Shown: piece by piece, positions 1-21,406 of the stretch
Layout of the letters: each line of letters begins with the position of its first letter
Numbering within the stretch: the first letter of the stretch is position 1
IMG/VR virus record: IMGVR_UViG_3300020392_000084
Location: 1 to 23,352 of that record
DNA from: a virus
Direction: 5' to 3' (one strand)
DNA length: 23,352 bases
Translations under genes and position numbers: made by a program
Notes under the pieces: model-generated
Told to the model about the DNA's origin: nothing
Seen by the model: the letters and a program-made list of their open reading frames with translations, nothing else
Database searches by the model: none

Positions 1-82
1 GTGAATGATGATATATAGCGCCCCTGGGTAAAGCAGCATCTAACCAATCCACAACCATTTTATGAAATTGGTATTCTTTCAT
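1..82 (-). CDS. VRR-NUC-like nuclease, N-terminal fragment (cut by window edge)
   Basis: An open frame begins at 82 with ATG and runs off the left edge, so only the first 27 residues are visible. It starts MKEYQFHKMVVDWLDAALP and continues into a stretch with an RGAIYHH pattern. A short helix with a tryptophan, then LP..A..HH, is how many phage VRR-NUC proteins begin (a PD-(D/E)XK nuclease family found beside replication genes). None of the catalytic residues are inside the window, so the assignment rests on this N-terminal resemblance and on position. The ATG lies one base after the TAG of the HTH gene at 84-293, so both are probably read from the same leftward message. It would be the second gene of the early leftward operon leading to replication genes outside the window. 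It could be an unrelated protein. Confidence 0.45.
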   Translation of the reverse strand, partial: MKEYQFHKMVVDWLDAALPRGAIYHHS

Positions 83-83
83 G

Positions 84-293
84 CTAATCTACACGGTAAA
101 AATCATTAGGCGTTACAGCTCCGTCAGTTACTGTCATAATTGCAGCCATATATTTTGCGCTTGGTATCATCCTATCTTTGTGTGTTCTAGGAAGACAAAA
201 ACGCCTGGCAATCGTTGCATGACTAGCACCTATCATTGCAGCTAACTTGGCATAGCTCATTTTATTTTGATCTTTAAATTCTCGTAATGTCAT
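84..293 (-). CDS. Cro-type helix-turn-helix DNA-binding protein
   Basis: A 69-residue protein, the usual size of a phage Cro-like repressor. Residues 12-35 (MSYAKLAAMIGASHATIARR followed by FCLP) form the HTH. The second half carries PSAKYMAAIM and TDGAVTPNDFY, a typical ending for Cro/YdaS-type regulators. It is divergent from the larger regulator at 400-1062, with a shared operator between them, and is the first gene of a leftward operon that continues into a nuclease-like gene. The likely role is control of the lysis-lysogeny switch as the early lytic repressor. A -10 box TATAAT (301-306, minus strand) lies only 7 bases upstream of the ATG, so the message should begin at or next to the start codon. 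That leaderless arrangement explains the absence of a ribosome binding site. Which of the two HTH proteins maintains lysogeny cannot be decided from sequence. Confidence 0.75.
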   Translation of the reverse strand: MTLREFKDQNKMSYAKLAAMIGASHATIARRFCLPRTHKDRMIPSAKYMAAIMTVTDGAVTPNDFYRVD

Positions 294-300
294 GCCCTGG

Positions 301-328
301 ATTATATATAATTGACAGTATCGGTCAA
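301..328 (-). promoter_or_regulatory. Leftward promoter giving a probably leaderless transcript
   Basis: On the minus strand, TTGACC (323-328) and TATAAT (301-306) are separated by 16 bases. The -10 box is a perfect consensus match. Its downstream edge is 7 bases from the A of the ATG at 293, so transcription is predicted to start at or within a base or two of the start codon. The -35 box lies inside the operator at 311-338, so repressor binding should block it. Confidence 0.65.
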
Positions 329-338
329 TACTGTTAAT
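311..338. promoter_or_regulatory. Divergent operator O1 (two overlapping dyads)
   Basis: A 28-base imperfect palindrome reads ATTGACAGTAT, six bases, then ATACTGTTAAT; its arms match at 10 of 11 positions. Nested in its left part is a 19-base dyad, ATTGACAGTATCGGTCAAT (311-329). The same 19-base layout recurs at 1070-1088 as ATTGACAAGTACTGTCAAT. It covers the -35 box of the leftward promoter and a TTGACA (312-317) facing right toward the regulator gene at 400. The rightward -10 is poor (TTAATT-like, about 334-340), so rightward promoter activity is uncertain. This is the expected binding site for one or both HTH proteins. Confidence 0.7.
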
Positions 339-352
339 TACTTAATTTGCAT

Positions 353-369
353 TATGACAGAATATGACA
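353..369 (+). repeat. Two direct copies of TATGACA, 10 bases apart
   Basis: TATGACA occurs at 353-359 and 363-369, a spacing of one helical turn, just upstream of the ribosome binding site of the regulator at 400. The core TGACA is shared with operator half-sites at 311 and 1070. TATGACAG also occurs (on the minus strand) at the integrase promoter. These may be additional regulator contact sites, or chance in an AT-rich leader. Confidence 0.35.
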
Positions 370-399
370 TACCATTATCTTTAACAATGAGGTACAACA

Positions 400-1062
400 A
401 TGAACAATAGGATTTCAAATTATAGAAATATGCTCTTGGGAGATCATTATAAATATATGACTAGCAACTTAAAGAAGTATATTCAATTGTCAGGTATGAG
501 CCATGCTGAAGTTGCAGCTGCTAAAGGTATAGCGCCTGAAAGCCTTAGTAGGCATATATCAGGAAGGTCGCAATTTAGTATCCAGGATGCTATTGATTAT
601 GCTGAAATATTACAAATAGACCCAACTGCTATATTGTTTGATCCTTGTAGAGTAAAGGTGTACGGCACTATTACTGATGGTTTTGTTGTAGATATGGTTA
701 GCGCAAGTGAAAAAGAAAAATTTATTCATACATCTAATATACGATTCGCTAGTCATGTTGGCGGATTTTTAAATAATAGAACTAATTGGAATTCATTTTT
801 TAATGGATGTATTACCTGGGCAGATATGCGTCCAATACAAGAAGAAACTGTACCGCAAGACGCTTTAAGTAGGTGCTGTATATACAAATGCACATGCTGC
901 AATATGATTAGGCAAGCTGTTATTCACAAACAACAAAGCGGTAAATTCACCATAGAACCTCTAGACCATCAAAACATTAAAACTGATGTTGATATACTTT
1001 GGGCGTGTCCAGTTTTAGGAAGAGCTGAACGTCCTGAATTGTTAGGTTTAGAAGTAAAATAA
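400..1062 (+). CDS. HTH transcriptional regulator, candidate lysogeny repressor
   Basis: A 220-residue protein with an N-terminal XRE-like HTH (about residues 22-80, including GMSHAEVAAAKGIAPESLSR and an ISGRSQFS turn). The C-terminal domain begins at VYGTITDGFVVDMV (87-100) and ends with DVDILWACPVLG. It has the size and layout of a phage CI-type repressor, but I cannot place the Ser-Lys pair of a LexA/S24 self-cleaving domain. The C-terminal part instead contains a cysteine cluster, RCCIYKCTCC (158-167). Start choice: GAGG eight bases before the ATG at 400. Divergent from the Cro-like gene and flanked on both sides by the same 19-base operator type, so it probably regulates itself, the leftward early operon and the recombination operon. 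Assignment as regulator is secure from the HTH and context; the mechanism of induction is unknown. Confidence 0.72.
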   Translation: MNNRISNYRNMLLGDHYKYMTSNLKKYIQLSGMSHAEVAAAKGIAPESLSRHISGRSQFSIQDAIDYAEILQIDPTAILFDPCRVKVYGTITDGFVVDMVSASEKEKFIHTSNIRFASHVGGFLNNRTNWNSFFNGCITWADMRPIQEETVPQDALSRCCIYKCTCCNMIRQAVIHKQQSGKFTIEPLDHQNIKTDVDILWACPVLGRAERPELLGLEVK

Positions 1063-1069
1063 ATTTATA

Positions 1070-1099
1070 ATTGACAAGTACTGTCAATTTCTATCTAAT
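1070..1099 (+). promoter_or_regulatory. Operator O2 and promoter of the recombination operon
   Basis: The 19-base dyad ATTGACAAGTACTGTCAAT occupies 1070-1088, with perfect 7-base arms around a 5-base centre. It contains a perfect -35 box TTGACA (1071-1076), followed after 17 bases by TCTAAT (1094-1099), five of six matches to the -10 consensus. The start of transcription should be near 1106, leaving a leader of about 27 bases before the ATG at 1133. The overlap of operator and -35 box implies repression by the adjacent regulator. Confidence 0.75.
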
Positions 1100-1132
1100 C
1101 CCATCTAATAGATAACAGATGGGGTTAATTAT

Positions 1133-2062
1133 ATGGAGTTCCCAACACTGCCCAACTGGGCAACACAAAAAAACTACTTATGGCATTCTAATCCTGAAAG
1201 TAGACCAGTATGTAGAACATACTTTGATAAATGTATTATTAGACCAAAGCTCGATATAGCCTGGTCTATAGTCAAAGGCGAAAAGGATGGTGATAAAAAT
1301 CACGCCTTAGAACAAATCAAAAAATATACTAATGATGCAGCTAAAATGACAGCTGGTCGAGTTGTTCAAACTTTAATTGAAGATTACCGTATCAATAATA
1401 AAGCAGATACTATTGAAGATTGTATTGATGCTGGTAAAGAAATGTTTGCCGAATACAAACCTAAGACCTGGGATGATGGCAAGGATGAAGCACAACTAGA
1501 AATTTGTCGTGATACTTTTGCTGATGTATTTAAGAATGCATTAGAAGGTTTAGATGAAGCGCAGAATAAAATGCGTATCAATAAACTAGAAGGTGAACGT
1601 AATTATATGTTTGCTGTTCCAGGTCTTACATTGGAGTATAACGGCAAGCCTGATTTTAACGGTCAAATAGAACTCAAAACCACCTGGGCAACATACAGTA
1701 AAGTTATAAGTTCAGGTAGACGTTCAGCAAGTTTACCTTCTCAACCCAGCTGGTCGCATTTGTGCCAGGTTGCTGGGTACTGGGCATTTAAGCATGAACC
1801 ACAATCAATTGTGTATGCTAACGAAAAAGGTTTTAGAGTTTTTACTGAAGAGAACTGCGAAAAACTAGCGCCTGAAGCATTAAAAAATATTTGGAATCAT
1901 ATTGTAGCTAAATGTCGTATCCGTGAAAACCAGCTTAAATCAGCTGAAACAGTGAATGATTTAATACAGCTGGTCGAACCTGACTTTAGCCATATGTTCG
2001 CCTGGGATATTCATCCTGACGTTTTATCAGAAGCAAAACTTTTATGGGGATTTGTACAATGA
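1133..2062 (+). CDS. PD-(D/E)XK exonuclease (Cas4/RecB-like), recombination nuclease
   Basis: A 309-residue protein with the active-site signature of the PD-(D/E)XK nuclease superfamily: GKPDFNGQIELKTTW puts the metal-binding and catalytic residues at D174, E180 and K182. A QVAGYW motif (Q212, Y216) matches the QxxxY box of RecB-family exonucleases. An upstream helix with AGRVVQTLIEDY (74-85) is also typical of the fold. The likely role is to resect double-stranded phage DNA 5' to 3' so that the annealing protein encoded at 2524 can load, as in lambda Exo/Beta-type modules. First gene of the operon behind the promoter at 1071-1099. Its stop overlaps the next start (ATGA). The ribosome binding site is weak (a GGGG about eight bases upstream). 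The superfamily is clear; the 5'-3' polarity and partner are inference. Confidence 0.8.
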   Translation: MEFPTLPNWATQKNYLWHSNPESRPVCRTYFDKCIIRPKLDIAWSIVKGEKDGDKNHALEQIKKYTNDAAKMTAGRVVQTLIEDYRINNKADTIEDCIDAGKEMFAEYKPKTWDDGKDEAQLEICRDTFADVFKNALEGLDEAQNKMRINKLEGERNYMFAVPGLTLEYNGKPDFNGQIELKTTWATYSKVISSGRRSASLPSQPSWSHLCQVAGYWAFKHEPQSIVYANEKGFRVFTEENCEKLAPEALKNIWNHIVAKCRIRENQLKSAETVNDLIQLVEPDFSHMFAWDIHPDVLSEAKLLWGFVQ

Positions 2063-2196
2063 ATAAGTATTTAAAAATGCATATTGCAAAAGCAACACCC
2101 AAACAAAATTTAAATTTACTTGGGTACACTGTTTTACAGTTTCTTGGTTTTTTTATGTTCACCGTATTCATGATTTTTTTACTGGTGATACTATGA
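2059..2196 (+). CDS. Small membrane peptide (45 residues), unknown function
   Basis: An open frame of 45 codons starts at the ATGA that overlaps the nuclease stop and ends at another ATGA overlapping the next start. It is therefore embedded by translational coupling on both sides, strong support that it is real despite its size. Residues 1-20 are polar and basic (MNKYLKMHIAKATPKQNLN). Residues 21-45 form one long hydrophobic helix (LLGYTVLQFLGFFMFTVFMI followed by FLLVIL). The predicted topology is a single-span inner-membrane peptide. I do not recognise a family. Its place between the exonuclease and annealing protein genes is unusual for a membrane protein. Possible roles include exclusion of superinfecting phage or modulation of a host nuclease complex, but nothing in the sequence tests this. 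Confidence 0.6.
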   Translation: MNKYLKMHIAKATPKQNLNLLGYTVLQFLGFFMFTVFMIFLLVIL

Positions 2197-2531
2197 TTCA
2201 AACAAATATGTTTGATAAATTAGAGGTACCTAGAAACGTCCGTGAAGCACGCTTTCTAGAGTTTCATAAACAGTACCCAATAGTTTATAGGCTATGGGAT
2301 AGGTTTACCAGGGAATGCATTGATAAGGGTATGAGCAAAGTAGGCGCAGCTCTTATCATGGAACGCATACGCTGGGAAACAAGCGTAGCTATACAAGACA
2401 CAACCAACAAAAATAAAAAACTAAAAATAAATGATCATCACAAAGCATATTATTCACGGCTTTGGATGAAGAACAATCCACAATACAAAGGTGTATTTGA
2501 AACAAGAGGAGTAGAAGGTAGTAATGATTGA
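2193..2531 (+). CDS. Conserved phage protein of unknown function
   Basis: A 112-residue soluble protein. The pattern REARFLEFHKQYPIVYRLWD (residues 17-36), then ALIMERIRWETS and a C-terminal YYSRLWMKNNPQY, belongs to a protein I recognise as common in phage early regions beside recombination or replication genes, but I know of no assigned function. The aromatic and basic composition would suit nucleic-acid contact; this is a guess. Overlaps the membrane peptide by ATGA upstream and the annealing protein by 8 bases downstream, so it is translated as part of the same operon. Confidence 0.7.
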   Translation: MIQTNMFDKLEVPRNVREARFLEFHKQYPIVYRLWDRFTRECIDKGMSKVGAALIMERIRWETSVAIQDTTNKNKKLKINDHHKAYYSRLWMKNNPQYKGVFETRGVEGSND

Positions 2532-3153
2532 AACGGATATATTACATAATATTATTGAAGATATAAAAAAAGCACCAGCTGTAGAAATTCATAAAAAGAA
2601 ATACACAACTGTAGCTACAAGATTAGAAATATTTAGAAAACATACTGGTTTTAAATACGGTATCAACACTGACATTGTTACATATGGATCACAACCAGGT
2701 GAAAAGATTGTCATCAAGGCAACCATATCCACTGATCAGGGATTTGTTTTAGCTAGTGGTACAGCTGAAGAGATTATTGGCAGCGGAAATATAAACAAAA
2801 CATCAGCACTGGAGAATTGTGAGAGCAGCGCCTGGGGGCGTGCTTTGGGCAGCCTAGGCATACATGGTGGTGAGTTTCCTAGTTACGAAGAAATGGAAAT
2901 AGCACAAGAGAAGGAGGATAAATTGAAAGATAATCCTAAACCTGATGGTGATCCTGAAAATAAATTAGCTGCTGCTGAAGAATATGTAGAACAGCAGATA
3001 AAAGCAATTCAAACAATGAACCAAAATGCACTCACTGTTTGGACACAACAAGAATCAGACAACTTAAAATCGTTAGCTGATCTTAATAAAAATCTACATA
3101 CAAAATTATTTAACGCTTACAAGGAAAGGAAACAAAATGCCGTCAGCGCCTAA
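2524..3153 (+). CDS. Rad52/ERF-like single-strand DNA annealing protein
   Basis: A 209-residue protein. The core GSGNINKTSALENCESSAWG followed by RALGSLG (residues 87-112) matches the signature of phage annealing proteins of the Rad52/ERF group, where an N-K-T-S-A-x-E-x-x-E-T/S-S-A-x-G-R-A-L pattern forms part of the DNA-binding ring. Upstream, YTTVATRLEIFRKHTGF (27-43) and IVIKATI correspond to the beta-sheet part of the fold. Residues 119-209 are charged and probably helical, a likely flexible tail for partner binding. It would anneal complementary strands made by the exonuclease of the same operon, aiding replication, concatemer formation and genome mosaicism. The exact family (ERF, Sak or another Rad52-like group) cannot be fixed without a profile search. 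Start at 2524 overlaps the previous gene by 8 bases. Confidence 0.72.
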   Translation: MIETDILHNIIEDIKKAPAVEIHKKKYTTVATRLEIFRKHTGFKYGINTDIVTYGSQPGEKIVIKATISTDQGFVLASGTAEEIIGSGNINKTSALENCESSAWGRALGSLGIHGGEFPSYEEMEIAQEKEDKLKDNPKPDGDPENKLAAAEEYVEQQIKAIQTMNQNALTVWTQQESDNLKSLADLNKNLHTKLFNAYKERKQNAVSA

Positions 3154-3433
3154 TATGAAAAATAGTAAATTGAGATTAAATGGATCTATAAATGCAACCG
3201 ATCAAATATCGGTAGGATTTTGGTTTAACATTGATGACCAAGATTTAGTTGACCAGCTAGAAAAGTATTACGCTATAGCTAATAAATCACCGTCAATACA
3301 GCTGCAAAGAAAAGAGATTGATACATATACAACAATGGGTAGTGCTAATCTATTCTTGCCTGATGAACGCAAGACTATGTTGCAAAGCAACTCAACACCA
3401 ATAGGAGATGATGATGGTTTCCCTGGAAGGTAG
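3137..3433 (+). CDS. Unknown 98-residue protein with acidic tail
   Basis: Starts inside the end of the annealing protein gene (17-base overlap), with AGGA about seven bases upstream of the ATG. Residues 10-50 (SKLRLNGSINATDQISVGFW and onward through LEKYY) look like alternating beta-strands followed by a helix. The C-terminus ends IGDDDGFPGR. A beta-rich small protein with an acidic tip, beside an annealing protein, raises the possibility of a single-strand-binding role. The tip is not the classical DDDIPF ending, and I cannot show an OB fold. No family recognised. The gene overlaps the start of the excisionase-like gene. Confidence 0.6.
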   Translation: MPSAPNMKNSKLRLNGSINATDQISVGFWFNIDDQDLVDQLEKYYAIANKSPSIQLQRKEIDTYTTMGSANLFLPDERKTMLQSNSTPIGDDDGFPGR

Positions 3434-3683
3434 AACACTATTAAGACCTAAAGAGGTTGCCATAAGATTGTTTGGTGATTTTGGTGATACAAACCGTAAA
3501 AGAATTTATCGATGGATTGAAACTGGTATGATTAAGGCTTTTAAAGATTCAAGAATATATTTTATTCCAAAATCTGAAATTGAAAGAATAGAAAAACAAT
3601 TAAATCCAGTTCAAAGTGGAATGGATAGAGAGAGCTTAGTTAGGTACCATGAAGCAGAACTTATGAAAGCACTCAAATTATGA
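3414..3683 (+). CDS. Excisionase-like HTH DNA-binding protein
   Basis: An 89-residue protein with a MerR/HTH_17-type DNA-binding domain: LLRPKEVAIRLFG, then NRKRIYRWIETGMIKAFKDS and YFIPKSEIERIEKQL, the helix-turn-helix plus wing arrangement of phage excisionases and AlpA-like proteins. Three consecutive ATG codons lie at 3408, 3411 and 3414. The GGAG at 3404-3407 is six bases from the third and too close to the first two, so 3414 is the preferred start. It is the last gene of the rightward operon and converges on the integrase gene. By analogy it would bend attachment-site DNA with integrase to drive excision, and its promoter (1071-1099) is under the regulator's operator, as expected for an induction-linked Xis. 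A transcription regulator is the alternative. Confidence 0.62.
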   Translation: MVSLEGRTLLRPKEVAIRLFGDFGDTNRKRIYRWIETGMIKAFKDSRIYFIPKSEIERIEKQLNPVQSGMDRESLVRYHEAELMKALKL

Positions 3684-3704
3684 TGGCGGATTAGTTTCCG
3701 CCAT
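3683..3704. terminator. Hairpin between convergent xis-like and integrase genes
   Basis: ATGGCGGA (3683-3690) pairs with TCCGCCAT (3697-3704) around a 6-base loop, a perfect 8-base-pair stem. It overlaps the TGA of the rightward gene and the last codons of the integrase. It could slow or stop transcription from both directions, but neither flank has the T-run of an efficient intrinsic terminator, so activity is uncertain. Confidence 0.45.
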
Positions 3705-4839
3705 ACATCGCTGAAGCAGCTGCTTGTCTTGCCTTCGCTTGTTTTCTTTCATTCTTAACAAAGTGACCATACTGCTTGTAAGTAAAGTTAGAGTTAGAAT
3801 GCCCCATAAGAGCAGCTACTTCCGCCCAATCTTCACCCAGGCTAGATAACTGTACTGATGCATAAAAGTGTCTCATATCGCCCCATAGGATAGGTTTTAC
3901 ACCAGCTCTTTCACAAACTCTTTTGATTAATTTGATCAATATCTTTTGTACTTTTGGTGTACCGTTGGAGCTTGCAAAAACAATGTCACCAGGTGCGCTA
4001 AACTTTGATGCAATCTTTAGCTCTTTAAGTTTCTTCATAGTAGATGCATCAATAGGTATTTCTCTTCTACCTCTTTTAGTTTTAGTGTCACCAATAATCA
4101 TTGTGCCATGCTTCACTGCACCCTCGATACGAATTGTATCATTATTAAAATCAATGTTACCCCATTTCAATGCACGCAGTTCACCTTGTCTCATGCCGCT
4201 TGCAAGAGCTGTAAGAACCATACACTGATCATAAAGAGTTTCAGCTGGTAATCCGTCACTAACAATCTTTTGAATTGTCTCAGGCTGTATTCTTGGCGCC
4301 CTATCTCCAAGCTCTGATGACATACCTAATGATACTTTATCAAGAGGGTTGATCGTAATCCAACCTTTTAGATCACAATAATTCAAAAACATTTTTAATA
4401 CTTTAATTCTTTTCTCAGCTGTAGCTTTTGACTTACCTTCGTCAGTAATACCTTTTACAAAAGCTGTAACTAATTCAGATTTGTTTTCTCTTTTGATAAT
4501 ATCAAAACTTTGATCTAAAAATTTCTTACCATCAATCTTGATATCCAAACAATAACCTAATGATTTTTTAATCTCTTTGAAAAATGAAACAGACAATTCT
4601 TTATTATCTATTCTAGTTGTTTGGTAATGATAAAACTTATCTACTGCCTGGGATACTTTTTCTACGTCAACTTTTTCTGCAATAGCACCAGTAATAAATT
4701 TAGCTTTGAGTAATTCAGCTTCTTTTAAAGCAGCTGCTTTTGATGAAAAGTTTCCATAATAATGTGAGTAACCCACACGCCTTGCATCAATAACCCAATG
4801 CTTTCTTGCTTCCCAGTATCTTACTTTAAGATCCTTCAT
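3691..4839 (-). CDS. int: Tyrosine-recombinase integrase
   Basis: A 382-residue phage integrase. Residues 1-50 form an arm-binding type N-terminus (YWEARKHWVIDARRVGYSHY). Residues 57-160 are the core-binding SAM-like domain. Residues 180-370 are the catalytic domain. Visible catalytic residues: R217 in ASGMRQGELRALKW, a lysine in the beta-hairpin DTKTKRGRR (K253 or K255), R323 in WGDMRHFYAS, H347 in ALMGHSNS, and nucleophile Y357 in YKQYGH. The histidine normally opening the HxxR box is replaced by G320. It should recombine the tRNA-Asp attP at 5178-5222 with the host tRNA gene; its predicted arm sites lie at 5090-5108 and 5310-5328. Start choice: GGAG eight bases upstream of the ATG at 4839, which overlaps the stop of the 56-residue gene (TAATG), so the two are coupled. 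Confidence 0.93.
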   Translation of the reverse strand: MKDLKVRYWEARKHWVIDARRVGYSHYYGNFSSKAAALKEAELLKAKFITGAIAEKVDVEKVSQAVDKFYHYQTTRIDNKELSVSFFKEIKKSLGYCLDIKIDGKKFLDQSFDIIKRENKSELVTAFVKGITDEGKSKATAEKRIKVLKMFLNYCDLKGWITINPLDKVSLGMSSELGDRAPRIQPETIQKIVSDGLPAETLYDQCMVLTALASGMRQGELRALKWGNIDFNNDTIRIEGAVKHGTMIIGDTKTKRGRREIPIDASTMKKLKELKIASKFSAPGDIVFASSNGTPKVQKILIKLIKRVCERAGVKPILWGDMRHFYASVQLSSLGEDWAEVAALMGHSNSNFTYKQYGHFVKNERKQAKARQAAASAMYGGN

Positions 4840-5009
4840 TAGTTAGCTCCTACAAAATTGTGGTACCAAACTTCAAAATCAAAATTTACAACAAAGTTTA
4901 CAGCTTCTTTTTTTGTTGAAAATGTATGAATGTTACCTTGTGATCTTGCAACCCACTCTTGATTTTTTTCTACATAGTAAATAAACCAATCACCAATTCT
5001 ATATGACAT
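4839..5009 (-). CDS. Small protein translationally coupled to integrase
   Basis: A 56-codon frame starts at 5009 with a clear GGAG six bases upstream and ends in a TAATG overlap with the integrase start, so it is the first gene of the integrase message. The sequence MSYRIGDWFIYYVEKNQEWV, then ARSQGNIHTFSTKKEAVNFV, resembles small beta-beta-alpha proteins of the DUF2188 type (tryptophan, then a conserved T-K-x-E-A). That resemblance is by eye and weak. The likely role is to modulate integrase synthesis or act as an accessory DNA-architecture protein at the adjacent attP. A mere leader peptide keeping ribosomes on the integrase message is the other option. Confidence 0.6.
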   Translation of the reverse strand: MSYRIGDWFIYYVEKNQEWVARSQGNIHTFSTKKEAVNFVVNFDFEVWYHNFVGAN

Positions 5010-5043
5010 TTTTTTCTCCGCTTTGTTAACAACTTATATAATA

Positions 5044-5071
5044 TATATAACAGCTACTGTCATATTTACAA
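5044..5071 (-). promoter_or_regulatory. Candidate integrase promoter with regulator-like half-site
   Basis: On the minus strand TTGTAA (5066-5071) and TATATA (5044-5049) are 16 bases apart, within an AT-only stretch that offers alternative -10 boxes. The spacer contains TATGACAG (minus strand, 5057-5064), the same word found at 353-360 and sharing TGACAGTA with operator O1. This suggests that integrase expression is under the same regulator. The predicted leader to the ATG at 5009 is about 25-30 bases. Confidence 0.45.
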
Positions 5072-5089
5072 GACAAGAACAGAAAAAAA

Positions 5090-5108
5090 TGTCTACAAAA
5101 TGTCTACA
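5090..5108 (+). repeat. Integrase arm-type sites, left pair
   Basis: TGTCTACA occurs twice as direct copies (5090-5097 and 5101-5108) separated by AAA, giving an 11-base period. The same 19-base unit recurs exactly at 5310-5328, on the other side of the tRNA-derived core. Short, paired, same-orientation repeats flanking a core are the layout of arm-type integrase sites. Confidence 0.75.
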
Positions 5109-5152
5109 TGGACTATTTATAAAAGTTATGGGAAAGGTCTTTTGGGGGATAA

Positions 5153-5181
5153 GCCATTGATATTACTAGTAATATAATGGC
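5153..5181. repeat. Long dyad abutting the tRNA 3' end
   Basis: GCCATT (5153-5158) and AATGGC (5176-5181) flank the perfect 16-base palindrome ATATTACTAGTAATAT (5160-5175), with one bulged G at 5159. The right arm includes the complement of the tRNA GCCA end. It could form a 14-base-pair hairpin just 3' of the tRNA sequence after integration, or serve as a protein-binding dyad in attP. There is no T-run, so a simple terminator is not indicated. Confidence 0.6.
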
Positions 5182-5222
5182 GAGAGTGACGAGACTCGAA
5201 CTCGCGACCTCCGGCGTGACAG
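5178..5222 (-). other. attP: attP core: 3' half of tRNA-Asp(GTC)
   Basis: Read on the minus strand, 45 bases match a tRNA-Asp from the anticodon loop to CCA: CTGTCAC loop (anticodon GTC), 3' anticodon stem, variable region, T arm with stem GCGAG/CTCGT around TTCGAGT, acceptor strand CACTCTC, discriminator G, CCA. The sequence upstream (TTTTTTACGAA) cannot form the 5' half, so this is not a tRNA gene but the segment a phage carries to restore the host gene after integration. Integrase gene and arm sites lie around it. The true identity length with the host, and hence the crossover, cannot be fixed without attB; the anticodon loop end is the likely strand-exchange region. Confidence 0.85.
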
Positions 5223-5265
5223 TTCGTAAAAAACCTATGCGTGGGGTGTAAAGAGGTAGGTATTC

Positions 5266-5301
5266 AGGGAAATACGGCTACAGAGTTCCCACCGATTCCC
5301 T
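5266..5301. repeat. Weak inverted repeat beyond the late operon
   Basis: AGGGAA (5266-5271) and TTCCCT (5296-5301) can pair, with an inner CGG/CCG three-pair segment. It lies between the attP core and the right arm sites, and downstream of the last late gene. A poor terminator candidate because no T-run follows in either direction; it may be structural in attP or chance. The rest of 5223-5309 shows nothing else I can name. Confidence 0.25.
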
Positions 5302-5309
5302 CGAAAAAG

Positions 5310-5328
5310 TGTCTACAAAATGTCTACA
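5310..5328 (+). repeat. Integrase arm-type sites, right pair
   Basis: TGTCTACA at 5310-5317 and 5321-5328, separated by AAA: an exact second copy of the unit at 5090-5108, in the same orientation. It lies immediately next to the stop of the 34-residue gene. Its presence on the far side of the core shows that both P arms are intact, meaning the att site is unrecombined here. Confidence 0.75.
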
Positions 5329-5329
5329 A

Positions 5330-5434
5330 TTAGGATTTATATTTACCCATGATAGATTTCTTTTTTTTACCATCTTTTTTCATAGGCTTTTTCTTTGTAT
5401 CCATTTTCTTACCGTATGATGATTTACCGTACAT
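5330..5434 (-). CDS. Lysine-rich 34-residue protein
   Basis: The last gene of the late operon. A 34-codon frame begins in a TAATG overlap with the stop of the preceding gene. It encodes MYGKSSYGKKMDTKKKPMKK and continues to GKYKS; 14 of 34 residues are lysine. The repeated YGK motif and extreme positive charge fit a nucleic-acid-binding or packaged DNA-condensing peptide. Size is small, but the exact overlap with the upstream gene and its composition, shared with the neighbouring genes, support it. No family known to me with a proven function. Confidence 0.55.
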   Translation of the reverse strand: MYGKSSYGKKMDTKKKPMKKDGKKKKSIMGKYKS

Positions 5435-5628
5435 TATTTTTTTCCTTTCATTTTTTTCATTAATGACATTGCTTTTGATTGAGCTGCTTTTGGTAGATCC
5501 TTCGAGTGAAATACTTGCTTTGAACTAGCGTTATGTGTCTTGCCAGTATGTATCTGACCGTTTGGCATTTTGTGTACGTCACCTCTATAGGGTTTACCAT
5601 CTTTAAAAAAATGTATTCCTGGCGCCAT
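5434..5628 (-). CDS. Small basic protein (64 residues)
   Basis: Begins MAPGIHFFKDGKPYRGDVHK, followed by PNGQIHTGKTH, then a lysine-rich helical tail (AMSLMKKMKGKK). AAGGAG six bases upstream gives a strong ribosome binding site. The N-terminal part looks like two short beta-hairpins with glycine turns; the tail is strongly basic. I recognise this type from marine phage genomes, where it is unnamed. It sits in a run of six short, mostly basic genes between endolysin and attP and may bind DNA, either in the virion or late in infection; that is inference. Confidence 0.65.
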   Translation of the reverse strand: MAPGIHFFKDGKPYRGDVHKMPNGQIHTGKTHNASSKQVFHSKDLPKAAQSKAMSLMKKMKGKK

Positions 5629-5643
5629 TTGCTTCTCCTTTTA

Positions 5644-5925
5644 TTAACTCCATTTAGTTTTGTCTGCCCAGTAAGCAGCTGACATTTTACCCTTGGCTAT
5701 ATTCTTTGCGTGTCTAGCCTTGAAACTTTTACGTTTGTTTTTCATCCTTTCACTTTCACCCTTCTTCGGCGCACCAGCTGTATCAGCTCCTTGCTGACCA
5801 AACCTTATTGTTTTTATTTTGTCACCTGACTTGGCAACAACAACATGACTTTTAGTAGGATGATTAGGTGTACGCTTTGGTTTATTGAAACCACTTACCT
5901 TCATTCTTTTTAGAATGCTGCTCAT
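5644..5925 (-). CDS. Conserved small basic protein (DUF6321-like)
   Basis: A 93-residue protein. SGFNKPKRTPNHPTKSHVVV (residues 11-30), IRFGQQGADTAG, then RKSFKARHAKNIAKGKMSAA and YWADKTKW form a pattern conserved in many phages. I recall the family as DUF6321, with moderate certainty. No enzymatic motif; strongly basic. The combination of a beta-rich N-terminus and an Arg/Lys/His-rich helix suggests nucleic-acid binding. Its start overlaps the stop of the preceding 56-residue gene (ATGA), so the two are coupled. Confidence 0.7.
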   Translation of the reverse strand: MSSILKRMKVSGFNKPKRTPNHPTKSHVVVAKSGDKIKTIRFGQQGADTAGAPKKGESERMKNKRKSFKARHAKNIAKGKMSAAYWADKTKWS

Positions 5926-6092
5926 GAAGATCTAACAGAACCCATCTTTGATGCTTTGTTAGCAAACTTAGAGCCACCTATCTTTGTCATTGTACCGTAT
6001 ACATAACTATCAGCAGCTTTGCCTTTTAAACCTTTTGCTTTGGCTTTTGCCATCAAAGATTTTTCTAATTTTTCTTTCATCATACCTGGCAT
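5922..6092 (-). CDS. Small basic protein (56 residues)
   Basis: A 56-codon frame starts at 6092 with an excellent GGAGG-type ribosome binding site and a one-base TAATG overlap with the previous gene. It ends in an ATGA overlap with the DUF6321-like gene. The protein, starting MPGMMKEKLEKSLMAKAKAK, has a basic amphipathic helix followed by KAADSYVYGTMTKIGGSKF and a Ser/Lys tail. The middle resembles small phage proteins annotated only as hypothetical. The gene arrangement leaves little doubt that it is translated. Function unknown. Confidence 0.68.
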   Translation of the reverse strand: MPGMMKEKLEKSLMAKAKAKGLKGKAADSYVYGTMTKIGGSKFANKASKMGSVRSS

Positions 6093-6337
6093 TATATCCT
6101 CCTAAATTTTCTAGTTTTTTTCATGATTGATTCAGGCTGTTTTGAAAACTGTTTACCAGCTTTCTTTGACTTTCGTTTAGCAGCTGTAGTTGCAGCGTAC
6201 TCAGCTGGTGTTAGAGCCTTTATTGCTTTCTCAGGCAAATAACGCTCACCAGTAACGCTTGATTTTTTGCCTGACTTAGTGCGCCATTTCTGTTCGCCCC
6301 AGCTCTTCAGGCTTCTTTGTGACTTGGCTAGGCTCAT
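6092..6337 (-). CDS. Conserved basic protein with SLKxWxxQKWRTKSGK motif
   Basis: An 81-residue protein, highly basic. SQRSLKSWGEQKWRTKSGKK (residues 6-25), then TGERYLPEKAIKALTPAEYA (29-48) and KRKSKKAGKQF. I recognise the first two segments as a widespread small-protein pattern in marine phages and, from memory, in some large algal viruses, usually without assigned function. Its ATG overlaps the TGA of the gene at 6334-6501 (ATGA), and the partner of that gene carries the other half of the pattern often seen together. DNA binding is plausible from charge and aromatic residues but not shown. Confidence 0.7.
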   Translation of the reverse strand: MSLAKSQRSLKSWGEQKWRTKSGKKSSVTGERYLPEKAIKALTPAEYAATTAAKRKSKKAGKQFSKQPESIMKKTRKFRRI

Positions 6338-6501
6338 CTATAACCACCACCTCTTGCCTTATATGTTTTGGCTAGTAGTTGTGCTTTCCTGGCTGACCAT
6401 TTACCAGCAGCTGTTCCGTGAGTAGCTCGACCTAATATAGATTTATACAACCTTTTTCTCATATTTGGTTTTGTGTAATTACCAGCTTTATTAACCGCCA
6501 T
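6334..6501 (-). CDS. Conserved small basic protein (DUF5872-like)
   Basis: A 55-residue frame begins at 6501, 11 bases inside the end of the endolysin gene, and ends in an ATGA overlap with the next gene. Its sequence has NYTKPNMRKRLYK (8-20) and KWSARKAQLLAKTYKARGGG (34-53), a pattern I associate with DUF5872-type proteins. That family name is from memory. It is very basic and compact, probably two helices. The double coupling to neighbours and the conserved pattern support it as a gene. Function unknown; charge and context suggest nucleic-acid binding. Confidence 0.68.
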   Translation of the reverse strand: MAVNKAGNYTKPNMRKRLYKSILGRATHGTAAGKWSARKAQLLAKTYKARGGGYR

Positions 6502-19729: not shown

Positions 19730-21406
19730 TTAATTTGTTCCTAAAGCATCAATGTTGAATTTTTCAAACATTTTTAATTGTACCTCTAATGCTTGAATAG
19801 TTGGATCATCAGCTCTTGCCCCTGAAGATGTTACAAAATCTCTTGCAGACTTTATTGGTTTAGCTAAATCATAAGCAAATGTCTTACCACCAAATGATGG
19901 TTTATAGGTTGCTGCTGTTAAAGTATCAAGATGTCTATACAATGCATCACGCATGACTTTTCTAAAATCTTCATCTTTAGCTTTTATAATATCATCCATT
20001 GCATCAATAAAATCATTGAAAGGTATGTCAGCTGTTTCTTTCTTTTTTCTTCTATCTTTGACAAATGTATCAAGAGCTTTTTTACCATCTATGTAAAGAC
20101 TTTTTGTCGCTTCACCAGCTATCGAATAAACATCCATATTTTCATTGTACCTGGTAGCATCTTTAAGCATATCTAACGCTTTTTTATAACCGTCATCTTG
20201 CTCTTTAATGAATGCTTTTATTGCAGCTTTATATTCATTAGTAGTAAGTTTTGGCTTCAAAGTTTTTATAGCTGCCATTGTCAGCTGATTTCTGCTGTCT
20301 AAAATAGTTAAAGTCTCAACGGCAGTTTTATCTGATTTAGTCAGACCATTATCATCGTCAGAATCACCAATACCCAAGAACTCTTCTACTGCTTCCCTTT
20401 GTGCCAGTGTTTCATAAGCACCTTCTGATATGTGTATTCTATGAGCAGCTATAGCAGCTGATCTTTGACTTGGATTGTCAATATCTGCATTTATTATAGA
20501 TTTAAATCTTTTCTTAATTATTGCTGCATCTTCATCGTCTGTTTTCTTTTTTTCTTCTTCTCGATTTTTATCTATCTTATCACCAAGAGCTAAAATTCTT
20601 TTTGTTAATGCATCTTGTTTATCTACCATTTTCATGGCGTTGTTTAGAACTGTATTCTCACTTTTTCCATCTACTATTTCCATAGCTGCTACCGAAGCAT
20701 CAGGAGCATTTTTTAAAATGTTTGTAACCAATCCATCAACTAATTTTTCAACCGATACATCAACTGCTGTCGTATATTCTTTTGCAGTAGTGAAGCTACC
20801 ATTAATAAGTGATTTGAGTAATATACCTGGTTCTTTTGCATCTGTAGAAAAAACTTTTTTAAAATTTTCTGCCTGAACTTTTTTATCATTAGAATTAACA
20901 ATTCCAACTATAGCTTCATCAGTGCTGCTAGATATATTTGCTTTGTTTACCTCAATAATTCTAGTATTATTTTTTTTCACATAATCAATTATTGCAGCAC
21001 TATAGACCTCTTGCCCTACAGACATAAATCTAGATTGTGATTTTTTAGAACTTAGAAAGGGTTTACCAGTTACTGGATTAATTTTAAGACCCATCTGATA
21101 CTGTTTTAGTATCTGTCTCATTTTACCCTTGGCTTCTGTTTCAGCCTGGATAGGATTTTGATTTTGTAATGCTTTTGATTTTTCTTCTTCAAAATCTGCA
21201 ATGATAGCTTTTTTGGCTGTGTCAACTTCAGTATCAGCTTCAATATCTAATTTTCTCATATAGATTTCAGTGAAATCATCACCGATATCACCAATAGCAC
21301 GATCTATAGCTGAAGCTGCATTTAGATCCATGCTTGCTGTTATACGCCGTCCGCCACCGCCACGGATACCAAAACCAGTTTGTTGTTTGTATGTAGGTAC
21401 TTTCAT
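19730..21406 (-). CDS. Internal virion protein, T7 gp15-like position
   Basis: A 558-residue, almost wholly helical protein with high lysine and aspartate content. The N-terminus has a glycine-rich turn (TGFGIRGGGGRRITASMDLN, residues 10-29). The body shows long charged helices (LDIEADTEVDTAKKAIIADF, GDKIDKNREEEKKKTDDEDA). No enzymatic motif. Its place between a gp14-like protein and the large ejection proteins matches T7 gene 15, whose product forms part of the injected channel. Assignment rests on order, size and helical composition. It is contiguous with both neighbours (one base between stop and next start). Confidence 0.62.
   Translation of the reverse strand: MKVPTYKQQTGFGIRGGGGRRITASMDLNAASAIDRAIGDIGDDFTEIYMRKLDIEADTEVDTAKKAIIADFEEEKSKALQNQNPIQAETEAKGKMRQILKQYQMGLKINPVTGKPFLSSKKSQSRFMSVGQEVYSAAIIDYVKKNNTRIIEVNKANISSSTDEAIVGIVNSNDKKVQAENFKKVFSTDAKEPGILLKSLINGSFTTAKEYTTAVDVSVEKLVDGLVTNILKNAPDASVAAMEIVDGKSENTVLNNAMKMVDKQDALTKRILALGDKIDKNREEEKKKTDDEDAAIIKKRFKSIINADIDNPSQRSAAIAAHRIHISEGAYETLAQREAVEEFLGIGDSDDDNGLTKSDKTAVETLTILDSRNQLTMAAIKTLKPKLTTNEYKAAIKAFIKEQDDGYKKALDMLKDATRYNENMDVYSIAGEATKSLYIDGKKALDTFVKDRRKKKETADIPFNDFIDAMDDIIKAKDEDFRKVMRDALYRHLDTLTAATYKPSFGGKTFAYDLAKPIKSARDFVTSSGARADDPTIQALEVQLKMFEKFNIDALGTN

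Follow-up and report, generated by a model that had tools for sequence, protein, structure and literature searches.

The window analysed in this work is a whole linear IMG/VR virus record of 23,352 bp, and the features of its early region are listed in Table 1. Read from right to left, the region contains a tyrosine integrase, an excisionase-like gene, a 98-aa gene, an annealing-protein-like gene and a 112-aa gene, and further leftward an exonuclease-like gene, the gene of a 220-aa HTH_3 regulator, a divergent gene for a 69-aa HTH protein and the cut start of a VRR-NUC gene. The translation of this last fragment, MKEYQFHKMVVDWLDAALPRGAIYHHS (2..82, minus strand), is identical to the start of its homologue in locus L016, and the homologue in L023, where a 69-aa-type gene is followed by VRR-NUC, NrdR-like and terminase genes, has a Pfam VRR_NUC match (E 5.5e-8). 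The exonuclease-like protein has no match in the Pfam search; its best relatives, at 26-33% identity, come from 9 phage records (8 from pelagiphages) and are either nucleases or hypothetical proteins. An annealing role is ascribed to the 209-aa protein because its gene adjoins the nuclease and because annotated annealing proteins occupy that place in pelagiphages. The NCBIfam search named only the type of the integrase.

Table 1. Genes, predicted operators and promoter-like elements in the early region of the window.
Feature	Position	Strand	Evidence or remark
Leftward operon gene 2, 5' end (VRR-NUC nuclease in relatives)	2..82	-	truncated by record end
69-aa HTH protein, Cro-like, gene 1 of leftward operon	84..293	-	weak HTH matches, predicted model
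69-aa gene promoter, TTGACC-N16-TATAAT	301..328	-	11/12 consensus, promoter scan
OR1, predicted operator, TTGACA-GTATC-GGTCAA	312..328	.	within 311-329; overlaps both divergent -35 boxes
Candidate 220-aa gene promoter, TTGACA-N17-TAATTA	312..340	+	read from sequence; unlisted by promoter scan
Right arm of 28-base dyad: third half-site or -10 region	329..338	.	arm search, pattern count
Alternative 220-aa gene promoter, TTGCAT-N17-TACCAT	347..375	+	read from sequence; OR2 inside spacer
OR2, weaker predicted 17-bp site, ATGACA-GAATA-TGACAT	354..370	.	3 mismatches in window
220-aa HTH_3 regulator, CI-like	400..1062	+	Pfam HTH_3 E 2.8e-6; predicted fold
OL, predicted operator, TTGACA-AGTAC-TGTCAA	1071..1087	.	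within 1070-1088
Exonuclease operon promoter, TTGACA-N17-TCTAAT	1071..1099	+	by eye; excluded by second-hexamer rule of scan
Exonuclease-like protein, 309 aa	1133..2062	+	similarity to pelagiphage proteins
Single-strand-annealing-like protein, 209 aa	2524..3153	+	PHROG 11717, unknown function, E 9e-23
Excisionase-like HTH protein	3408..3683	+	PHROG 66, E 8e-5
Tyrosine integrase	3691..4839	-	Pfam Phage_integrase E 5e-22

The closest relatives of a 1079-aa virion protein are found in pelagiphages, roseophages and a few others. When the profile of the 220-aa protein was run against genome contigs, four Bacteroidales loci were matched, only over the first 106-110 residues or less, so that no host can be assigned from them. 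A few further points of the region deserve mention. The annealing-like proteins of L017, L022 and L023 are 59-70% identical to that of the window, and the neighbouring exonucleases 84-95%, as if the annealing-protein gene had been exchanged by recombination. Beside the integrase, a stretch on the minus strand (5178-5222) looks like the 3' portion, T-arm plus acceptor, of a tRNA with a CCA end, presumably tRNA-Asp, and is a candidate attP; ARAGORN reported no tRNA in the whole window and Rfam no match in bases 1-6500, this stretch included.

The preliminary description of this DNA had pointed to two 19-base dyads that bracket the 220-residue regulator gene and overlap -35 boxes, and this is indeed what is found. 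Compared with ATTGACA-N5-TGTCAAT, the dyad ATTGACAGTATCGGTCAAT (311-329) has one mismatch and ATTGACAAGTACTGTCAAT (1070-1088) none; the former overlaps the -35 box of the minus-strand promoter of the 69-aa gene, the latter that of the exonuclease operon. The larger 28-base dyad proposed at 311-338 is likewise real, with 13-nt arms (309-321 and 328-340) that are 92% complementary; its pattern occurs once in the window at up to three mismatches against 0.04 expected, and is present in 4 out of 100 shuffles. Its right arm coincides with what is probably the -10 region belonging to the 220-aa gene and, judged by eye, recurs in relatives of class A and not in those of class C (see below for the classes). 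The 19-base pattern is found twice in the whole window at up to one mismatch (0.01 expected, none of 100 shuffles reaching two), and three times at up to three mismatches against 3.00 expected. As the latter count is at chance level, the window by itself is modest evidence, and it is the relatives that carry the case. One more operator-like match, TTGACTTGGATTGTCAA (20465-20481, 11 out of 12 matches), lies within a 558-aa virion-side gene and is probably due to chance.

The promoter matches alone are weak too, since the scan, taken as a whole, gave 7 promoter-like sites and the shuffles 5.3. The -10 box of the 69-aa gene ends 7 nt ahead of the ATG, and from this spacing its mRNA is probably leaderless. 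Where the window has the alternative promoter of the 220-aa gene, boxes resembling TTGACA-N17-CATxxT are seen by eye in class-C relatives.

The relatives were collected in two sets. The set anchored on the 220-aa gene held 62 loci including the window, 30 of them non-redundant; 66 out of 67 loci were analysed, L158 (a 41-residue match at a contig edge) being left out. Homologues of the 69-aa protein were found at 68 loci in viral contigs, of which 58 were analysed along with the window; L034, whose match is at a contig edge, and L075-L083, with weak or partial matches, were excluded. A motif-free palindrome test on 30 upstream regions gave the highest counts at gaps 5 and 7 (9 out of 30 each, with shuffle maxima of 6 and 5), and because this signal is weak, motif-based tests were adopted. 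On the OR side, beside the divergent 69-aa gene, a 17-bp site with at most two mismatches is present in all 30 non-redundant loci, and with at most one in 23 (shuffles: mean 1.9, maximum 6). On the OL side, between the 220-aa gene and the exonuclease, the corresponding numbers are 29 and 24 (shuffles: mean 1.4, maximum 4), the site being absent at this threshold from L149 only. The dyads are thus kept in close relatives with the same regulators, and they appear to behave as operators of the switch and of the recombination operon, as had been proposed. The second-best OR site (2-4 mismatches) is 40-44 bp from the best one in 26 out of 30 loci, i.e. about four helical turns away; at this spacing it is missing in L097, L101, L116 and L149. 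We count these four loci and the missing OL of L149 against a lambda-type interpretation.

The exact core TGAC-N7-GTCA lies within 150 bp upstream of the 69-aa gene in 17 out of 22 non-redundant loci (shuffle mean 0.03, maximum 1, in 200 rounds), and with any other inverted spacing between 0 and 21 the count is 5 of the 22 or fewer. These are the 30 upstream regions minus 8 whose 69-aa homologues are 30-42% identical (L065, at 41%, was kept), and the core is absent from L059 and L062-L065, which likewise counts against a lambda-type interpretation. Relaxed to TTRACA-N5-TGTCAA with up to one mismatch, the pattern occurs in 33 out of 39 whole records, and a reversed control pattern gives 5 matches in all. 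The exonuclease relatives with a 220-aa gene have the dyad ahead of the exonuclease with conserved arms and variable centres (AGTAC, ACATC, ACAGC, GCTTC, TCAAC). The conserved operator unit in these alignments is the 17-bp dyad TTGACA-N5-TGTCAA; the consensus given previously is upheld in so far as the dyad is kept, but its conserved part is this core and not the full 19 bases. Other spacings also exceed the shuffles, namely gaps 1 and 2 on the OR side, present in 18 and 11 of 30 loci when two mismatches are allowed, and gap 12 on the OL side, present in 10 of 30. We do not regard them as separate motifs: the OR-side matches consist largely of the gap-7 site's right arm with a T-rich centre, and the gap-12 matches share one gap-7 arm.

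The 69-aa protein has weak Pfam and PHROG HTH matches, below the cut-offs, and its predicted model is a five-helix HTH (pLDDT 85.9) whose weak structural matches include P22 Cro, Xfaso1 Cro, CapH and YdaS (best Foldseek E 0.2, best Z 7.7). In 61 out of 66 loci the 220-aa gene has a divergent neighbour of the 69-aa type, the remaining five having 510 bp or less of upstream sequence. The C-terminal motif AVTPNDFY of the 69-aa protein (residues 59-66, encoded at 96-119) is invariant in all 37 aligned homologues, more so than the recognition helix. In the 220-aa protein, sequence searches recognize only the HTH: at E <= 0.1, HTH_3 is matched in 18 and HTH_26 in 20 of 20 family members, no S24 match is listed for these 20, and three queries found no relative of the protein in 50,697 phage records. 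Its predicted model (pLDDT 85.9, pTM 0.68) has as best fold matches the lambda-186 hybrid repressor (E 7.4e-7), 186 CI and lambda CI. Residues 81-214 superimpose on 186 CI (2fjr) with Z 9.3 and an rmsd of 3.2 over 104 residues at 13-14% identity, and most other matches listed cover the HTH alone; the whole-chain TM to known repressors is only 0.31-0.37, which we count against a lambda-type interpretation. On this basis the protein is predicted to be of the CI type, with an N-terminal Cro/C1-type HTH and, from the model, a CI-like C-terminal domain. A catalytic serine/lysine pattern is not seen in residues 80-220 of 20 aligned sequences, where the sole column with serine in at least half of them is S103 (13 out of 20). 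RecA-driven self-cleavage is thus unlikely, as there is no conserved cleavage serine.

In terms of sequence similarity, the DNA target of the 220-aa protein seems to be conserved while the rest of the protein drifts, because in L019, L020, L022, L027 and L028 the recognition helix is 91-100% and the HTH (residues 21-80) 73-80% identical to the window, as compared to 33-42% in residues 81-220. The loci fall into two classes according to this helix, those with an IRPE-type helix forming class C (L154 was assigned to it by hand) and the others class A. In class A the OL half-site is TTGACA, with A at base 6 in 15 out of 16 loci, or 14 out of 15 if L149 is set aside, whose OL is a non-site with four mismatches and was yet counted as A. 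In class C the half-site is TTGAC followed by T, G or C (8, 3 and 3 of 14 loci) and never by A. The corresponding helix of the 69-aa protein is mostly xHAT in class A (GDAT in L107 and L109, HPT in L105) and DQAT or KEAT in class C. Half-sites and the recognition helices of both proteins thus change in step in these sequences; this is essentially one split, and L152, with G at base 6 and a class-A-like helix, breaks the covariation. From the half-site class it can be predicted which of these phages have their immunity in common.

Which of the two proteins binds the dyad can be approached through loci without the 220-aa gene. There are 26 with a 69-aa gene and an exonuclease in view (L024-L026, L030, L031, L035-L038, L040-L053 and L055-L057), many of them near-copies (L024, L030, L035, L040, L042 and L044 are non-redundant), and all 26 have TGAC-N7-GTCA within 150 bp upstream. 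The claim that one protein, encoded between the dyads, regulates everything is thus not supported. Since the dyad is kept in these loci, the 69-aa protein is the better-supported and more general binder. The 220-aa gene, where the sequence reaches far enough, never occurs without the 69-aa gene, so its product's own binding is inseparable by comparison. Because the recognition helix of the 220-aa protein is maintained and its other domain has diverged, this protein probably uses these sites as well; that the recognition helices of the two proteins differ from each other counts against sharing.

The joint occurrence of the 220-aa gene and an integrase was followed in 20 whole records, which may be fragments. 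The 220-aa profile is found in 8 of them and an integrase in 11; every one of the 8 with the 220-aa gene also has an integrase, and none of the 9 integrase-less records has the gene. Three records (G011, G015 and G016) have an integrase and no 220-aa gene, which again counts against a lambda-type interpretation. Mapped on a tree of the exonuclease, the 220-aa gene requires 5 or more changes, as compared to 1 for the integrase; a test of independent pairs is without power, as there are only 3 pairs, 1 agreeing and 2 not differing. Close relatives without the 220-aa gene are L024-L026, L030 and L031, an integrase being shown for L026, L030 and L031. L030 and L031 have a single dyad, TTGACAGAAAAAGTCAA, between the divergent 69-aa gene and the exonuclease, and the 33.7-kb record of L030 holds no relative of the 220-aa protein and no HTH_3 match except the 69-aa gene. 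One might speculate from these sequences that, in relatives with an integrase but no 220-aa gene, the choice between lysis and lysogeny is governed by the 69-aa protein alone, with one repressor and one operator, even though we think this rather doubtful. If it were true, the single dyad of L030/L031 could cover both -35 boxes, and the 220-aa gene would be an add-on, repeatedly gained or lost around a Cro-like core common to the integrase-less phages.

A perfect extra dyad lies far from the switch in 5 of the 6 integrase-less records looked at individually rather than in a survey (L036, L037, L038, L040 and L043, not L033). At L036:8582, L037:8583, L038:9003 and L043:6649 it precedes a rightward terminase-small-subunit-like gene (the assignment, by PHROG 1482, was made for L036 only); in L036-L038 it is overlapped by the start of a leftward ORF, and the record of L040 ends before any such terminase gene. 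This arrangement suggests that the 69-aa protein may also act at the packaging operon of integrase-less relatives.

Taking the sites and the predicted folds together, we consider it quite probable that the dyads are operators of a lambda-type immunity region found in uncultured marine phages, bound in common by the CI-like 220-aa and the Cro-like 69-aa proteins. The 220-aa gene, between OR (OR1 and OR2) and OL, would encode the lysogeny repressor, and the divergent 69-aa gene a Cro-like repressor at the head of the leftward lytic operon. We infer that both would bind the same 17-bp site, each as a dimer. One arm of the operator is or overlaps a -35 box and the other arm lies in the spacer, so that a bound dimer would be expected to block RNA polymerase. 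With OR1 and OL occupied, the leftward operon and the exonuclease/annealing/excision operon would be silenced, and through OR2, which lies in the alternative promoter or in the early transcript of the 220-aa gene, either protein could shut the 220-aa gene off. Given the lack of a conserved cleavage serine, an antirepressor or another signal seems a more likely inducer than RecA-mediated self-cleavage.

The sharing of the sites is the point at which other explanations have to be considered. If only the 69-aa protein bound the dyads, it would be a Cro-like timer of the early operons, and the 220-aa protein would act at other sites or otherwise. The dyads of the 26 loci without the 220-aa gene, the integrase-less phages that keep the dyad and add further perfect sites, and the differing recognition helices all speak for this explanation; however, 29 out of 30 loci have OL where the 220-aa gene ends, and the 220-aa recognition helix, conserved amid drift, switches class together with the half-site, and we regard exclusive binding by the 69-aa protein as unlikely. 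Exclusive binding by the 220-aa protein, which the preliminary description implied, agrees with the dyads bracketing its gene in those 29 loci, but it is very improbable in view of the 26 out of 26 loci that keep the dyad without the gene and of the 12 out of 20 records searched in which the 220-aa profile is absent.

The dyad might also simply result from two -35 boxes set back to back, TTGACA facing TTGACA, and at OR1 both arms are in fact the -35 boxes of divergent promoters. At OL a single promoter is to be expected, yet the second arm, in the spacer, is conserved (the GTCAA positions in 11-16 of 16 class-A loci); in addition, the left arms of class-C OR1 sites are TTGATT or TTAACT, and the spacing of the arms is fixed. 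We give it next to no credence. Binding by a regulator of the host appears scarcely credible either, since the variation of the half-site from one sub-lineage to the other follows that of the phage regulators, and the sites are concentrated at the phage switch.

It is interesting to compare the shared-operator switch favoured here with known systems. The repressor gene is flanked by operators on both sides (an OR site in 30 and an OL site in 29 out of 30 loci), a small divergent HTH gene is the first in the OR-side operon (61 out of 66 loci), the int, xis, annealing and exonuclease genes lie on the OL side in the window and its relatives, and 17-bp dyad operators lie over the promoters; in all these respects the region is lambda-like. 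In lambda, OL and OR have three operator repeats apiece. Here there are one OL and two OR sites and thus fewer than three on either side, the 220-aa repressor is without a conserved cleavage serine, and the 69-aa gene and the operator occur also without the repressor gene. The best predicted-fold match of the 220-aa protein, its C-terminal part on 2fjr, is to phage 186 CI, although the gene layout is lambda-like and not 186-like. The release of phage 186 is due to an antirepressor, Tum, a protein that binds the 186 repressor (PMC3121763). In the telomere phage PY54 the cI/cro switch has a single operator, Cro acts on a 16-bp palindrome, and the cI and cro mRNAs are leaderless (PMC4488713). The likeness to this description of PY54 lies in the palindromic operator and in the leaderless mRNA, though PY54 differs in its single operator, and here only the 69-aa mRNA looks leaderless, judging from its spacing.

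Among cultured pelagiphages, HTVC010P, HTVC034P, Skadi-4 and Lederberg (L084-L087) carry a 69-aa-type gene, 32-34% identical, in the same place, divergent to nuclease/annealing genes (the nuclease is annotated as such in HTVC034P and Skadi-4). Unlike the protein of the window, their 69-aa-type proteins have an insertion in the recognition region, and TGAC-N7-GTCA is found within 150 bp upstream in none of the four. We found no title or abstract on the operators or a CI/Cro pair of these phages, although PMC8477408, on HTVC010P-type life strategies, may describe one. From the present comparison, an operator consensus that can be tested and a pair of repressors become available for a group of marine phages whose immunity we did not find described in the literature searched, and among the relatives there are natural examples of an operator retained without the CI-like gene. 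Judged by these sequences, this is most likely a switch of the known lambda kind in a new variant form, for which the operator in the preliminary description was right and the single-regulator reading too narrow.
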